From Candidatus Saccharicenans sp. (GTDB taxonomy: Bacteria; Acidobacteriota; Aminicenantia; Aminicenantales; Saccharicenantaceae), in assembly GCA_024653215.1 (NCBI GenBank), contig JANLFU010000011.1, forward strand, positions 1 to 64,000: a stretch of DNA of 64,000 nt, written 5' to 3'. Positions within the stretch are counted from its first letter, which is position 1; the number at the start of each line of letters is the position of its first letter. The position numbers were made by a program, and so were the translations under genes. Shown piece after piece: positions 7,351-23,609 of this stretch. The notes under the pieces were generated by a model. It had not been told where the DNA came from and made no database searches. It saw only the letters and a list, made by a program, of their open reading frames with translations.

Positions 7351-7443
<93 letters not shown>

Positions 7444-8581: not shown

Positions 8582-8676
8582 TGGCGGAGAGGGCGGGATT
8601 CGAACCCGCGATTCCGGTTATTACCCGGAATAACGGTTTTCGAGACCGTCGCCTTCAACCACTCGGCCACCTCTCC
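8582..8676 (-). tRNA. tRNA-Ser (anticodon CGA)
   Basis: Class II tRNA on the minus strand: acceptor GGAGAGG/CCTCTCC, discriminator G and encoded CCA. The anticodon stem ACGGT/ACCGT encloses CTCGAAA, giving anticodon CGA (reads UCG). The long variable arm ATTCCGG-GTAATAA-CCGGAAT and the T-arm GGTTCGAATCC are clear. Same strand and same outer arms as the GGA serine tRNA across hom, pointing to duplication from a common ancestor gene. Confidence 0.97.
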
Positions 8677-18312: not shown

Positions 18313-19482
18313 ATGTTGTTTTCAACTGAAAACAAAAGAATTAAGAAGACCGTCAGGGCCGGTACGGTCTTCCTCTGCCTTTTCCTGATGGTTCTGACTT
18401 CAAGCCTTTTCTCCCAGCAGACGGTCGTCAAAAAAGACGGCCAGCAGATTGTGATAAGTGAAGAGTCAGAGCCCGACCGTATGGGTCTTACACTCCTGCC
18501 CATCATTTATTACACTCCCGAAACCAGGCTGGCCTTCGGACTGGGCAGTCTCATTACCTACCGTTTCGGCCTGGTCTTCAAAAAGGCCCGTCCCAGCACC
18601 ATGTTCCTGGGCGCCATCTATACCCAGCTGAAACAATTTACGCTTCAGATTAAGCCCGAAATATATCTAAATGATAATTCGCTCTTCCTGGCTGGAAACT
18701 TTATGGCTGAACGGTTTCCAACCAAGCTCTGGGGAATCGGTCCTAACACCGCTGATGAAATGGAAGAAGTTTACACTCCGCAGAGGTTTCTGATGGAAGT
18801 CGGGCTGCAGCAGAGGCTGGGCCGGGACCTTCCCCTCTACCTCGGTTTGAAGTATCGCCTGGAAAGCACCAAGATAGTCGAGACTGAACCGGGGAAACTT
18901 CTCGACCAGGATCTGGTCCTTGGCAGCCGTGGTGGGCTACTGTCCGGACCGGGCCTGGCTGCCAGCTACGATAACCGCGATAACATTTTTTATCCAAATA
19001 GCGGGCTTTACCTCCAGGCCAATCTTAACTGGAACGACCATTTCTTCGGGAGCGATTATGATTTTTTAAGCTTCCAGTTTGACCTGCGCAATTACCACCT
19101 GGTTGGCGAAGACCAGGTCCTGGCTGTTCAGGCTCTGGCCGAAACCAACACCGGTGATGTCCCCTTCTACCGGCTGGCGCGCCTCGGAGGGGATTCCCTG
19201 CTACGCGGTTTTTATAATGGCCGTTTCCGGGACATGAATCTGGTCGCCTTTCAGGCCGAGTATCGGTTCCCCGTTTGGAAGAGACTGGGAGCGGTGGTGT
19301 TTGGAGCCATGGGCAGCCTGGCCAATCGTTTCCGGGACATTTCTTTCGATAACCTAAAGTACGCGGCCGGCTTCGGCCTGAGATTTAAGATTATTCCCAA
19401 AGAAAATGCCAACCTGCGGGTGGACCTGGCCTTTGGACCGGGAACCTACGGGATTTATTTTAAGGCCGGGGAATCTTTCTGA
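18313..19482 (+). CDS. BamA/TamA-type outer-membrane beta-barrel protein (surface antigen family)
   Basis: Exported 389-residue protein. A signal peptide (hydrophobic TVFLCLFLMVLTSSLFSQ, about residues 19-36) is followed by alternating strands typical of a 16-strand Omp85-like barrel without POTRA domains. Recognisable are PIIYYTPETRLAFGLGSLITYRF, GPGLAASYDNRDNIFYPNSGLYLQ and the C-terminal GGDSLLRGFYNGRFRD (the loop-6 RGF motif of Omp85 proteins). The chain ends in Phe, the usual C-terminal signal for outer-membrane assembly. Role could be as a secretion or lipid-handling pore, or the barrel half of a secreted lipase family; unproven. It is probably translated from a leaderless transcript. 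Confidence 0.8.
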   Translation: MLFSTENKRIKKTVRAGTVFLCLFLMVLTSSLFSQQTVVKKDGQQIVISEESEPDRMGLTLLPIIYYTPETRLAFGLGSLITYRFGLVFKKARPSTMFLGAIYTQLKQFTLQIKPEIYLNDNSLFLAGNFMAERFPTKLWGIGPNTADEMEEVYTPQRFLMEVGLQQRLGRDLPLYLGLKYRLESTKIVETEPGKLLDQDLVLGSRGGLLSGPGLAASYDNRDNIFYPNSGLYLQANLNWNDHFFGSDYDFLSFQFDLRNYHLVGEDQVLAVQALAETNTGDVPFYRLARLGGDSLLRGFYNGRFRDMNLVAFQAEYRFPVWKRLGAVVFGAMGSLANRFRDISFDNLKYAAGFGLRFKIIPKENANLRVDLAFGPGTYGIYFKAGESF

Positions 19483-19565: not shown

Positions 19566-20468
19566 TCAAGGCTGAATTTTTACCGGCTCGTCCTCTTTTT
19601 TCTCCGTTAACGAGAATCCATGAGAAATGCAGGAGGTGGGACAGACCGGTTCACATTTCAGGCACCTGATGCACTGCGAGCTGTCGGGGTCTTCATAAAT
19701 CCTGATATTTACAGGACAGACCTTCTGGCAGGCGTTGCAGACTATGCATCTATCCAGGTCAACATTCATCCTGAAGGCGCTGACCCGGTTGAAAAAGCCA
19801 AGTATGGTTCCCAGCGGGCAGACCGTCCGGCAAAACGGCCTCATGGAAACGGCCATCCAGACCAGGAAAAGAATGAGCAGAGATAACTTCCAGGCGAAAA
19901 GAAAACCAAGCTGGGCCCTGATAGCTGGATTAAGGATGGACAGAACTATGCCGGCTTCCAGGGTGCCAGCCGGACAGACCCACTTGCAGAACCAGGGTAA
20001 ACCCAGCCCGGAGGTGTCCACCACCAGGAGGGGCAACAGTAACACCATAACCGCCAGGACAAGGTACCGAAGATTTGTTAAAAAAGCCGGAAGTTTTACC
20101 TTCGGCACCGGGACCTTATAGACCAGCTCCTGCAACAAACCAAAAGGACAGAGCCAGCCACATGGTAGCCGCCCGCCAATAATTCCCATCAGACCAAGGC
20201 TGCCGATAACATACAGGCCTAATTTCTTCTGGCCGGCACCCAGGTTATACCTGAGGGTATTCAGGGAGTTTTGAAGGGCCCCCACCGGGCAGGCCCCCAC
20301 CGCTGCCGGACAGGAATAGCAATTAAGGGCAGGCACACAAAGCCCTTTGGTTTTAACCTGGCTAATATTTCCTTTCAGCAGCGATAGAAAATCCAGGTTG
20401 AAACCCAAAGCGGCTATTATTTGAAATATCCTTCTCCTGGCTTCGGTTTTTAATGTTCCCGTTTTCAT
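19566..20468 (-). CDS. NapH/YccM-like membrane polyferredoxin with two [4Fe-4S] clusters
   Basis: Integral membrane electron carrier of 300 residues. The N-terminal part has CVPALNCYSCPAAVGACPVGALQ, then several hydrophobic segments interleaved with the NapH-type cytoplasmic motifs CGWLCPFG, CKWVCPAG and CRTVCPLG, and ends in two classical ferredoxin motifs, CIVCNACQKVCP and CIRCLKCEPVCP. Members pass electrons between the quinone pool or cytoplasmic ferredoxin and periplasmic redox proteins. I took ATG 20468, eleven bases after the stop of the 46-residue CXXC gene, since an upstream ATG (20498) lies within that gene. It is third in the operon rhodanese / CXXC peptide / polyferredoxin, which suggests a role in moving electrons for a sulfur or thiol reaction outside the membrane. 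Confidence 0.85.
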   Translation of the reverse strand: MKTGTLKTEARRRIFQIIAALGFNLDFLSLLKGNISQVKTKGLCVPALNCYSCPAAVGACPVGALQNSLNTLRYNLGAGQKKLGLYVIGSLGLMGIIGGRLPCGWLCPFGLLQELVYKVPVPKVKLPAFLTNLRYLVLAVMVLLLPLLVVDTSGLGLPWFCKWVCPAGTLEAGIVLSILNPAIRAQLGFLFAWKLSLLILFLVWMAVSMRPFCRTVCPLGTILGFFNRVSAFRMNVDLDRCIVCNACQKVCPVNIRIYEDPDSSQCIRCLKCEPVCPTSCISHGFSLTEKKEDEPVKIQP

Positions 20469-20479
20469 GGTCCGGATTC

Positions 20480-20620
20480 CTACCCTATGCCGATGCATTC
20501 CAGGCAGACGGTAACTGCTTTCTGCCAGACGACCCGGAACTCTCCGCTCAGTAATCCCAGAACTATGAAAGCAACCGATATAAACAGGAACGTAAAAAAC
20601 AGATACTTTCTTTTTTTCAT
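20480..20620 (-). CDS. Small CXXC membrane protein, CD1871A family-like (46 aa)
   Basis: A 46-residue gene between the rhodanese and polyferredoxin genes, with AGAGG eight bases before its ATG and stop TAG eleven bases before the next ATG. The product has one hydrophobic helix (YLFFTFLFISVAFIVLGLL) and then GEFRVVWQKAVTVCLECIGIG. The ending CLECIGIG after a KA segment matches the small CD1871A family CXXC motif-containing proteins as I recall them, which are often next to 4Fe-4S membrane proteins. Start six bases after the rhodanese stop indicates tight coupling. The CXXC would lie just outside the membrane; function is unknown, with thiol exchange or metal/cluster binding both possible. Confidence 0.8.
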   Translation of the reverse strand: MKKRKYLFFTFLFISVAFIVLGLLSGEFRVVWQKAVTVCLECIGIG

Positions 20621-20625
20621 GAGGC

Positions 20626-21531
20626 TTACCTCTGGCCGGTTTCTATCGGGAGGTCATCCCGGTTACTCCATTCGTTGAAGCTTCCGTCGTACAGCCGGAC
20701 CTTCGGGTAATTCAACAGATACTTGAGGGTCAGATAGGTGTGGGAAGCCATCAATCCCTGCCCGCAGGAAACAATTATGGTCTTGTCGGGCGTTATGCCC
20801 AGGTCCCGCAGGTTCCCGGAGATCACCTTAAGATCTTTCCAGCTTCCATCCTCCTTCAGAAAAGAGGCCCAGAAGATGTTGATCGCTCCCGGGATATGTC
20901 CGTTTCTCTTCCAGTTGCCACGTTCGCCAGAGTAAAGCTCGGCCGACCTGACATCAAGCAGCACGGTAGTCCTGGTGTCGCGGCTCTTTACCTGGTCAAG
21001 AAGTGCCCTGACTGATTCGTCGGGGTTTATTTTCGAGCCGTAGTTGGTGCGGGCCAGCTGGGGATAATCGCGCGATACCGGTCTATTCTCGTTCTTCCAG
21101 CGGTTAAAACCGCCGTCAAGAATGGCCCAGTCCTGGTGCCTGATGTAATCAAGGGCCCAGGCCAGGTAGGTAGCCCGGTAATTGTTAATTTCAGTATAAA
21201 TGACGACGGTCGTCTTGTGGTTTATTCCCATCTCCTCCAGCAACCTGGTCAGAACTTCAACCGGGAGGAGACGCCCGGGAACCCCGTTCTGAGGCCAGCG
21301 CAGGGCAGTTTCGTCCAGGTAAACGGCTCCGGGTATATGTCCGGCCCAGTAATCCCTGATATCGGCTCGCATGTCGATAATCCTGAGACCGGGCTGATTG
21401 AGGTTGGCCTGGAGCCACTCTCCGGATACCAGGCGACGCTCGGGGGTCTGAGCCTGGAGCCCAGATAATAATATCAGGCCCAGGGCTAAAAGGATGGTGG
21501 TGCGAAATAAGTTTTCAACCTGTCTTTTCAT
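20626..21531 (-). CDS. Exported tandem rhodanese-domain sulfurtransferase
   Basis: A 301-residue protein with an N-terminal signal peptide (LFRTTILLALGLILLSGLQAQ) and two rhodanese domains. The first (about residues 33-150) has lost its catalytic Cys: the loop reads VVIYTEINNYRAT. The second (about 180-300) keeps the active-site Cys256 in VSCGQGLMASH and the C-terminal GSFNEWSNRDDLPIETG typical of thiosulfate/3-mercaptopyruvate sulfurtransferases. It would carry a persulfide in the periplasm. It is first in an operon with the CXXC small protein and the polyferredoxin. Specific sulfur donor and acceptor cannot be read from the sequence. Confidence 0.88.
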   Translation of the reverse strand: MKRQVENLFRTTILLALGLILLSGLQAQTPERRLVSGEWLQANLNQPGLRIIDMRADIRDYWAGHIPGAVYLDETALRWPQNGVPGRLLPVEVLTRLLEEMGINHKTTVVIYTEINNYRATYLAWALDYIRHQDWAILDGGFNRWKNENRPVSRDYPQLARTNYGSKINPDESVRALLDQVKSRDTRTTVLLDVRSAELYSGERGNWKRNGHIPGAINIFWASFLKEDGSWKDLKVISGNLRDLGITPDKTIIVSCGQGLMASHTYLTLKYLLNYPKVRLYDGSFNEWSNRDDLPIETGQR

Positions 21532-21584: not shown

Positions 21585-23609
21585 TCAGTTTGCTTTTATC
21601 CAGGGGAAGCAGGTTATCCTCAGCCTGGCGCAACCCATGGGCACCAGCCTTATCCTGGTGTCGGGTTGCCTGGAACTGACCGGACTGGCCGGAACCTTTC
21701 CCACCATCCGGCCTTCTTCCTTCCATTCCGGGAGCCTCCGGGCCTGGGCCTCCAGAACCAGCGGGGCTGAGCCCAGTGAAAAAGGTTGGTAATCAAGAGG
21801 CCTTTCCTCGATGAGCTTAATGTCCTTAGCCGGGGCCTTTGGGTCCAGAAGCAGGGCGAAATTCCAGGGCGAGGCTGGCAGCACTTCCCAGGCCGGCCAG
21901 TCGTCGCTGCCCCCGGCCCGCTTCCATTCTTCCTTGATTTCCAGTGAGTACCAGAGCGGTCCCCGCCTGATGGAGGCAGCCTGGCCCAGGCCCGGCCAGA
22001 AATGAACCTTTATTGATTGTTCCAGGTCGAGGGTTATCCTGTCTCCATATTTCCAGGTTTGTTCCACGACCGCAAATTCTCCGGCTGCCTTTATCTCCCG
22101 CGGCTTTCCCCCGTTAATCGAAATAGAGGCTTTTTCTGCCCAGCCTGGCATTCTTAAATACAGAGGAAAAGCAACCGGCTCATCGGCGTAGACAGTCAGC
22201 TCAATCCTGCCGGAAAAAGGATAATTCGTATCCTGGACAATCCTGACCGCCTTCCCCAAATTCCCGGCCTTGAAATTAACCATTGAAGGTCCATAAAAAA
22301 TGGTCGCCAGGCCATTATCGGACGTGGCCAGATAGAGGTGCTCAATATAATAGGGCCAGCCAAAAGCCACGTTGTGCTGGCAGCAACGATACTTCCAGGG
22401 GTCAAAAGACAGCAGCGTGCCGGAATTCTGGAAATCGTGGTCTCCGGAACTGTCGCAGGAAATAAGGTTGGCCGCTGTCAGGTAATGCAGGGCTTTTAAG
22501 TCAGGAGTCAGGGCGGCTGGCAGTGAATTAACAGCAATCTCCTCAGCCCGGTCGGCATAAATCACCTGCCCTGTTATCTTAAGCAGGGACTCAAAACTGT
22601 TCATGAATTCAACCATGGTGCAGGTTTCTGCCCCCTGTCTCGGGTCGCCGTATCCGGGCCTTATATTTTCGTCGGCCGCAAACATACCTCCAGGTTGCTG
22701 TCCGTAGGCTTCCATCACCTGGCGGTAGTTTCTTTCTAACGCTGCCAGCAATCCCGGCTCTCCTGCCTGTTGATAATAAACCCCGGGATATCTGAAGCCC
22801 ATGGCAATATTTACCCCGTGGTAGAACGAACTTTCTTCCCAGTGCCGGTCGCGTTCGGCGGTGAGTATCGGAGAGGCCCAGTCGGCCGTGCGCCGGTAAA
22901 TCCTTTTAGCCAGTTCCAGGAGCCAGCCCTGTCCGGTTCGGTTATAAAGCCAGTAAACGCTTTCCAGGTTTTCGCCTCCCCGTAGTTTCTGCCAGCTTCC
23001 GGGTAACAGTTTTTCTTCGGACAGGCCGAACTGATAGCGAAAATAGGCAGACATGAAATCGAGGACTCTCCTGTCTCCGCTGAATTCGTAATAGCTCTGC
23101 AGGCAGGCCAGGGCCACCATGTTGGGCCAGAGGTCATTGTTGTCTCTGTTTTCGACCGGGCCGAAGTAACCGTCGGGCTGCTGGCTCTTCAGTATGGCTT
23201 CGATCCATTTCCTGGCGGTGGCTATTAATTCCGGGTCTTTGAGCAGGTAGGCCAGGTCCCCGAAGCCCTTCAGCCAGTACGGCATCTCTTCCCAGCCGCG
23301 GCCTTTCAGGGTCAGCCAGCCCGAATCGGCCTGCAAGAACCTGGATATTTCTGGCAGGCGTCCCGTCAATCCCGAGGCCATCAGCCGGAGCTGGCTTAAC
23401 AACCAGCCACGGGCTTCGACCTGCCCCGGGGGAAGCTTGAGCAGAGGATTGCTCCGAAGAGGCGGCCGGTTTCCCTGGTAGTGAGAGTTTATCCTATCGA
23501 CCGGTGGCGTCCTGACAATCCTGATCTCTTTCACCGTCTCTCCTCCGAAAATATTGGCTGTCGACAATGAAACCAGAATCAAGAGACATATCACCCAGGC
23601 CCGTTTCAT
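21585..23609 (-). CDS. Secreted GH127-family glycoside hydrolase (beta-L-arabinofuranosidase-like)
   Basis: A 674-residue exported enzyme of the DUF1680/GH127 family. Signal peptide MKRAWVICLLILVSLSTANIF. The catalytic (alpha/alpha)6 barrel spans about residues 60-430, followed by beta-sandwich domains. The zinc/cysteine site characterised in the Bifidobacterium enzyme HypBA1 is present: Glu328 and Cys330 in AETCTMVEFM, and Cys409-Cys410 in YRCCQHN, where the first cysteine of the pair would be the nucleophile. The family mainly removes beta-L-arabinofuranose, but relatives act on other sugars, so the exact substrate is open. Ribosome site AGGAGCC precedes the ATG. Same strand as the rhodanese operon, 53 bases upstream of it. 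Confidence 0.88.
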   Translation of the reverse strand: MKRAWVICLLILVSLSTANIFGGETVKEIRIVRTPPVDRINSHYQGNRPPLRSNPLLKLPPGQVEARGWLLSQLRLMASGLTGRLPEISRFLQADSGWLTLKGRGWEEMPYWLKGFGDLAYLLKDPELIATARKWIEAILKSQQPDGYFGPVENRDNNDLWPNMVALACLQSYYEFSGDRRVLDFMSAYFRYQFGLSEEKLLPGSWQKLRGGENLESVYWLYNRTGQGWLLELAKRIYRRTADWASPILTAERDRHWEESSFYHGVNIAMGFRYPGVYYQQAGEPGLLAALERNYRQVMEAYGQQPGGMFAADENIRPGYGDPRQGAETCTMVEFMNSFESLLKITGQVIYADRAEEIAVNSLPAALTPDLKALHYLTAANLISCDSSGDHDFQNSGTLLSFDPWKYRCCQHNVAFGWPYYIEHLYLATSDNGLATIFYGPSMVNFKAGNLGKAVRIVQDTNYPFSGRIELTVYADEPVAFPLYLRMPGWAEKASISINGGKPREIKAAGEFAVVEQTWKYGDRITLDLEQSIKVHFWPGLGQAASIRRGPLWYSLEIKEEWKRAGGSDDWPAWEVLPASPWNFALLLDPKAPAKDIKLIEERPLDYQPFSLGSAPLVLEAQARRLPEWKEEGRMVGKVPASPVSSRQPDTRIRLVPMGCARLRITCFPWIKAN

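Follow-up and report, generated by a model that had tools for sequence, protein, structure and literature searches.

In the systems already described, TlpA/ResA-like thioredoxins act as reductants. NapH of W. succinogenes has been proposed to oxidise menaquinol, and in its treatment of that protein the same source assigns no function to the CxxxCP motifs, for which a thioredoxin-like disulfide has been considered (PMC5928378). A survey of flavinylated electron-transfer systems takes, in its account of its own approach, gene clusters with FMN-binding or ApbE genes (PMC8238504). Small proteins of NCBIfam NF040920 (CD1871A family CXXC motif-containing protein) are catalogued in a listing that names no function, and a literature search on the CD1871A name found no paper. 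Searches on TlpA, NapH, CcdA and polyferredoxin themes, covering titles and the starts of abstracts, found no description of the module presented here.

The window, a 64,000-nt stretch of Candidatus Saccharicenans sp. (contig JANLFU010000011.1, positions 1 to 64,000), carries three closely spaced genes, all on the minus strand: an exported two-domain rhodanese resembling 3-mercaptopyruvate sulfurtransferase (301 aa, 20626..21531; Pfam, NCBIfam and PDB matches), a CD1871A-family membrane protein (46 aa, 20480..20620; NF040920, hydropathy and a consensus of 150 peptides) and a NapH-like membrane polyferredoxin (300 aa, 19566..20468; three PF12801 stretches plus Fer4, and an AlphaFold2 model). 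The genes are 5 and 11 nt apart, the second distance holding for a polyferredoxin start at ATG 20468; a longer form from the in-frame ATG 20498 would run into the small gene. The open reading frame coordinates bear out the gaps of the original prediction, which had read the genes as an exported two-domain rhodanese with one cysteine, a small membrane protein ending in CLECIGIG and a NapH-like polyferredoxin with two [4Fe-4S] motifs and additional CxxxCP motifs. These readings stand: the rhodanese has a hydrophobic N-terminus, two PF00581 stretches and C256 as its sole cysteine, the frame at 20480-20620 encodes 46 residues with one transmembrane helix, and the polyferredoxin holds two CxxCxxCxxxC and three CxxxCP motifs. 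Upstream of the rhodanese, and in the same orientation, lies a gene for a GH127-type glycosidase that is absent from that prediction (21585..23609, minus strand; PF07944 and neighbourhood table); 53 nt separate the two. On the other flank, an Omp85-superfamily outer-membrane protein gene (18313-19482, plus strand) is convergent with the polyferredoxin gene, a position kept across the genus. Two tRNA-Ser genes (GGA and CGA anticodons; 7351-7443 and 8582-8676, minus strand) were the sole RNA family matches above threshold within the window.

The 46-aa protein scored 60.9 bits against NF040920 (cut-off 32), which makes it a member of that family, and most of the changes between its gene and those of three genus members fall at third codon positions; for these two reasons the gene is not a chance reading frame. 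It is not new as a family, and the idea that it had escaped annotation is not supported. Hydropathy gives one transmembrane helix (residues 7-25) preceded by an N-terminus with a charge of +4, and because of these four positive charges the CxxC-bearing tail CLECIGIG (20483-20506, minus strand; read from the sequence) is predicted to be extracytoplasmic. The consensus of the 150 peptides, which were gathered from loci by a pattern requiring CxxCxG near the end, reads G-[LI]-x-R-G-E-x3-V-[LFW]-x-K-A-x2-[IV]-C-[LM]-E-C-I-G-I-G at the extreme C-terminus; loci collected without this pattern had a like ending, with small variation. One sister genus seemed to have fused forms of this protein, in open frames of 113-259 aa; these were rejected as GC-rich read-through of genes of about 44 aa.

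The small gene lay immediately in front of the polyferredoxin gene in all 81 loci found through the polyferredoxin (80 found by searching genome contigs with an alignment of polyferredoxins, plus the Peptoclostridium locus; nearly all Clostridia, with some Treponema). Starting from the small protein, a polyferredoxin gene adjoined it in 37/37 relatives and in 29 of 30 Bacillota loci, the latter drawn from 30 of the 40 genomes with an NF040920 match. The pairing with NapH-like genes that the original prediction had proposed looking for across genomes is therefore found in all three sets; the co-occurrence elsewhere on which it had staked its three-gene reading is widespread for the small protein and the polyferredoxin, and extends to the rhodanese in one neighbouring genus only. 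The former two form a conserved unit, and the rhodanese stands outside that core. At the exceptional Bacillota locus (L171), the surroundings of the small gene, where a polyferredoxin would be expected, hold what by eye resemble a transposase and a reverse transcriptase of the group II intron type. Matches to NF040920 occurred in 37 of 99 relatives, in 18 of 396 genomes of the window's phylum (all 18 in the window's order) and in 40 of 299 genomes of Bacillota, the phylum of Robinsoniella peoriensis (28 above the cut-off). One R. peoriensis genome carries three copies of the small CxxC family. Restriction of the linkage to Clostridia was ruled out by the matches in the window's relatives. A search of plasmids found the pair in Peptoclostridium acidaminophilum only, and a Parabacteroides plasmid match was rejected as a different 4Fe-4S protein.

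An exported TlpA-like thioredoxin was the commonest neighbour of the pair, present within about 5 kb in 64 of the 81 Clostridia/Treponema loci, the next family reaching 20 loci. Its gene was directly upstream in 46 of 75 orderable loci and directly downstream in 9 of 71, six of the 81 loci having been omitted from these position counts since their greedy gene calls contained no polyferredoxin. In Bacillota, 20 of 30 loci had a TlpA-like match within about 1.5 kb, some of them weak. Four thioredoxins from this slot matched the AhpC-TSA, Redoxin and Thioredoxin families, and for three of them the ResA model was the best, with a score below its cut-off. Among 50 relatives, a TlpA gene was directly upstream in all small-gene genomes outside the two rhodanese-bearing genera (14/14) and in none of the window's genus (0/19), while genomes lacking the small gene gave one weak TlpA match (1/17). 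No TlpA of the slot type was found in the 19 genomes of the window's genus. One other relative (G070) has the pair with no TlpA called directly upstream.

The slot is occupied by the rhodanese in 15 of the 19 genus genomes (one copy split by a contig end) and in G020, of a neighbouring genus, and slot rhodaneses are confined to these two genera. The window's protein belongs to the rhodanese superfamily (PF00581, 114 bits in two stretches, with the catalytic cysteine in the second domain); its best NCBIfam model, the 3-mercaptopyruvate sulfurtransferase PRK11493, scored 144 bits, below the cut-off of 250 for that equivalog, and the PDB entry 1uar_A was matched at 2.5e-49. Its single cysteine, C256 (codon 20764-20766), sits in a CGQGLMAS loop and is kept in 12/12 intact copies aligned. 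Mercaptopyruvate sulfurtransferases take thioredoxin-type dithiols as sulfur acceptors, so the rhodanese would be a chemically sensible replacement for TlpA as a client of the pair, a role that we regard as plausible.

The role may also be nil, because three of the 18 small-protein genomes of the genus (G006, G013 and G018) have a decayed rhodanese gene, and because genomes lacking the pair also show the link between rhodanese and GH127. In the three decayed cases the small gene is intact; the G018 remnant has glycine in place of the catalytic cysteine, and that of G006 is a short, weak match (E 0.15). This decay rules out the rhodanese as a requirement for the pair, and the single conserved three-gene operon originally predicted does not hold. 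The remnants lie at L037:6578-6730, L034:1566-1655 and L016:536-634; GH127 was also not found in the first two of these loci. The alternative that fares best has the rhodanese as a bystander: GH127 and rhodanese genes, themselves a pair, would have landed beside an independent CxxC/polyferredoxin unit with no joint function. We hold this to be a serious possibility, a little short of an even chance. GH127 precedes the rhodanese in 14 of the 15 rhodanese-bearing genus genomes, the fifteenth locus stopping at a contig edge, and it lies directly before rhodanese homologues in two genomes without the small gene (G036 and G050), so that this link is independent of the pair; the loci of this kind are L149:2929-5897 and L148:1641-4612. 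Against the bystander reading stand the gap of only 5 nt between rhodanese and small gene in the window, the gene order kept in 15/15 rhodanese-bearing genus members, the presence of rhodanese and small gene in G020 with no GH127 within the 5 kb read, and the occupation by the rhodanese of the slot from which TlpA is absent.

The polyferredoxin scored 65.3 bits against Fer4_5 (PF12801, cut-off 22), and this match, with its CxxxCP and 2[4Fe-4S] motifs, places it in the NapH-like Fer4_5 superfamily. Scores against TIGR02163 (53.5 bits, cut-off 213.05) and PRK09477 (46 bits, cut-off 234) fall short of the NapH equivalog. Its Pfam matches were to Fer4-type families only; PF02683 was not matched, so it is not a member of the CcdA/DsbD family. 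Hydropathy shows a weaker first helix followed by three clear ones, and assuming a cytoplasmic ferredoxin domain, the C44-C60 loop and C161/C165 would lie outside and C103/C107 and C213/C217 inside. The motifs, all on the minus strand, and their predicted sides are thus a Cx5Cx2Cx6C loop (C44, C50, C53, C60; 20289..20339, extracytoplasmic), a first CxxxCP (C103, C107; 20145..20162, cytoplasmic face), a second, FCKWVCP (C161, C165; 19971..19988, extracytoplasmic), a third (C213, C217; 19815..19832, cytoplasmic face) and the two CxxCxxCxxxC motifs of the 2[4Fe-4S] ferredoxin domain (19641..19748; Pfam, alignment and PDB matches). E. coli NapH, aligned over 199 columns (hhalign, 98.9% probability), shares both inner CxxxCP pairs and neither outer set, having no cysteine at the second CxxxCP, so that the six polyferredoxin cysteines predicted to be extracytoplasmic are absent from it.

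Sixteen cysteines were invariant in all 87 polyferredoxins aligned; C44 was present in 83, the other four having a cysteine 1-2 residues away, and C161 in 85. For this set an 80% identity filter reduced 131 recovered sequences to 86, with nine loci skipped as too short or with no frame found. AlphaFold2 modelled the whole protein with a pLDDT of 91.3 and a pTM of 0.87, and the membrane part alone with a pLDDT of 88.0 (62-row alignment). Searched against the PDB, the whole model matched through its ferredoxin domain alone, as did the sequence (best 60 of 121 matches), and the membrane part alone gave no match to PDB structures with E of at most 0.001 or Z of at least 2, an absence that does not demonstrate a new fold.

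The homology to NapH (the hhalign match above) raises the alternative that the polyferredoxin is a NapH-like quinol dehydrogenase, with the small protein as a structural subunit and the quinone pool feeding a periplasmic oxidoreductase, as the menaquinol oxidation proposed for W. succinogenes NapH in the part of PMC5928378 that concerns it would suggest. We consider this unlikely: inspection by eye of the 30 largest neighbour clusters showed no periplasmic respiratory enzyme, the pair is partnered by a thioredoxin, and the polyferredoxin has six extra outer cysteines.

The window's genome gave no match to the DsbD transmembrane family (PF02683), and genomes with the pair carry this family far less often than those without. 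Among 99 relatives, PF02683 occurred in 10 of the 37 that have the small protein and in 47 of the 62 that do not (Fisher p = 2.6e-6, shared ancestry ignored). Excluding the window's genus, the counts were 9/19 and 47/61 (p 0.02, shared ancestry ignored), and with completeness of at least 90% as a further restriction, 7/14 and 25/27 (p = 0.004, shared ancestry ignored). The 299 Bacillota genomes gave 14/40 with the small protein and 194/259 without (p = 1.3e-6, shared ancestry ignored), and when only small proteins above the cut-off were counted PF02683 was present in 10/28 (p 4e-5, shared ancestry ignored). Twenty pair-carrying Clostridia/Treponema genomes comprised seven with a DsbD/CcdA match and 13 with none. 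Both systems do occur together (10 of 37 relatives and 14 of 40 Bacillota genomes), which counts against reading one as a stand-in for the other.

CxxCxGxG is the zinc repeat of DnaJ. The match of the small protein's tail to this repeat, the presence of CxxCxG near the C-terminus of all 150 peptides (as the collecting pattern required) and the strict pairing with the polyferredoxin could be explained if the tail were not redox-active and instead formed a zinc-knuckle-like or cluster-ligand half site for polyferredoxin assembly. We give this explanation a small share of the probability, as it leaves the thioredoxin partner and the DsbD association unaccounted for and polyferredoxin copies occur without the small protein. 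Reverse flow, in which extracytoplasmic thiols or persulfides are oxidised and electrons pass inward to ferredoxin or quinone, is improbable: sequence cannot tell direction and the rhodanese could present a persulfide, but TlpA/ResA-like partners are reductants in known systems and the pair is negatively associated with the reducing system DsbD/CcdA.

Our preferred reading, to which we assign about an even chance, is that the pair takes the functional place of CcdA/DsbD, using iron-sulfur chemistry to conduct electrons across the membrane and return secreted thiol proteins to their reduced state, with the rhodanese as a possible client in the window's genus. The small protein and the polyferredoxin would form one membrane device, in which a cytoplasmic low-potential donor would feed electrons into the ferredoxin domain at its two [4Fe-4S] clusters, the CxxxCP pairs would carry them across the membrane, and they would leave at the predicted extracytoplasmic cysteine set, composed of the Cx5Cx2Cx6C loop and FCxxxCP. 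The CxxC tail of the 46-aa protein could then pass them on, in the form of a dithiol, to a secreted thiol protein, usually a TlpA/ResA-like thioredoxin. The window's genus has lost the TlpA gene, and its client slot is filled by an exported rhodanese of the mercaptopyruvate-sulfurtransferase type; there the device could re-reduce the persulfide of that enzyme. The outward path to a persulfide carrier first suggested for the locus is reasonable as a path to a thiol or persulfide carrier, because the pair is conserved, the CxxC is predicted to be extracytoplasmic and the slot usually holds an exported thiol protein; the three-gene unit was wrong, and the usual client would be a thioredoxin. Nothing observed at these loci pointed to sulfur or thiosulfate reduction.

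Counting against the conduit is a second polyferredoxin, 54% identical and with all cysteine motifs kept, that the window's genome (L211:4386-5270, on the minus strand of G000:C33) has in common with two close relatives (L212; L213) and that has no small CxxC gene nearby. By eye, its gene is divergent from an M14-peptidase-like gene. A bolder form of the proposal, which we advance tentatively and rate at roughly one chance in three, is that the pair represents a counterpart of DsbD/CcdA built on iron-sulfur chemistry, widespread and so far unrecognised, and analogous to a ferredoxin-thioredoxin reductase set in the membrane. A polyferredoxin bearing an outer cysteine or cluster site would reduce a 46-residue CxxC relay peptide, the relay would reduce secreted thioredoxins, and in the genus the system would have been re-plugged onto a secreted sulfurtransferase to give a periplasmic persulfide reductase.

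The finding that 13 of the 20 pair-carrying genomes had no DsbD/CcdA match, although TlpA-like thioredoxins are the commonest neighbour, raises the question of how these thioredoxins are re-reduced, to which a small protein tied to a polyferredoxin and to thioredoxins offers a testable answer. If this is true, the short list of routes known to export reducing power would gain an iron-sulfur one, and the rhodanese swap suggests that the client is changeable.

Compared with described systems, the small protein passes the NF040920 cut-off, and a named record carries the family beside a '4Fe-4S binding protein'; what is new for the family is the gene linkage, the thioredoxin partner and the DsbD association. 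The window's rhodanese resembles 3-mercaptopyruvate sulfurtransferase/rhodanese (PRK11493, 1uar) in its two rhodanese domains and one catalytic cysteine, and differs in its hydrophobic export-type N-terminus, its sub-cut-off score and its gene neighbours. The NapH-like flavinylated electron-transfer and DsbD/DUF4266 systems, as outlined in PMC8238504, likewise have a PF12801 protein feeding extracytoplasmic redox proteins, whereas by eye no FMN-binding or ApbE genes were among the 30 largest neighbour clusters here. With the NapH/MauN ferredoxin-type proteins (TIGR02163; E. coli NapH) the polyferredoxin shares a Fer4_5 core, two CxxxCP pairs and a C-terminal 2[4Fe-4S] domain, but it scores below the cut-off, has six extra cysteines and is accompanied by a CxxC micropeptide and TlpA in place of NapG/NapA. 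We propose that the pair works like CcdA/DsbD (PF02683), supplying TlpA/ResA-like thioredoxins with reducing power from across the membrane without belonging to that family, by means of an iron-sulfur polyferredoxin and a CxxC micropeptide where CcdA/DsbD has a helix-borne cysteine pair.
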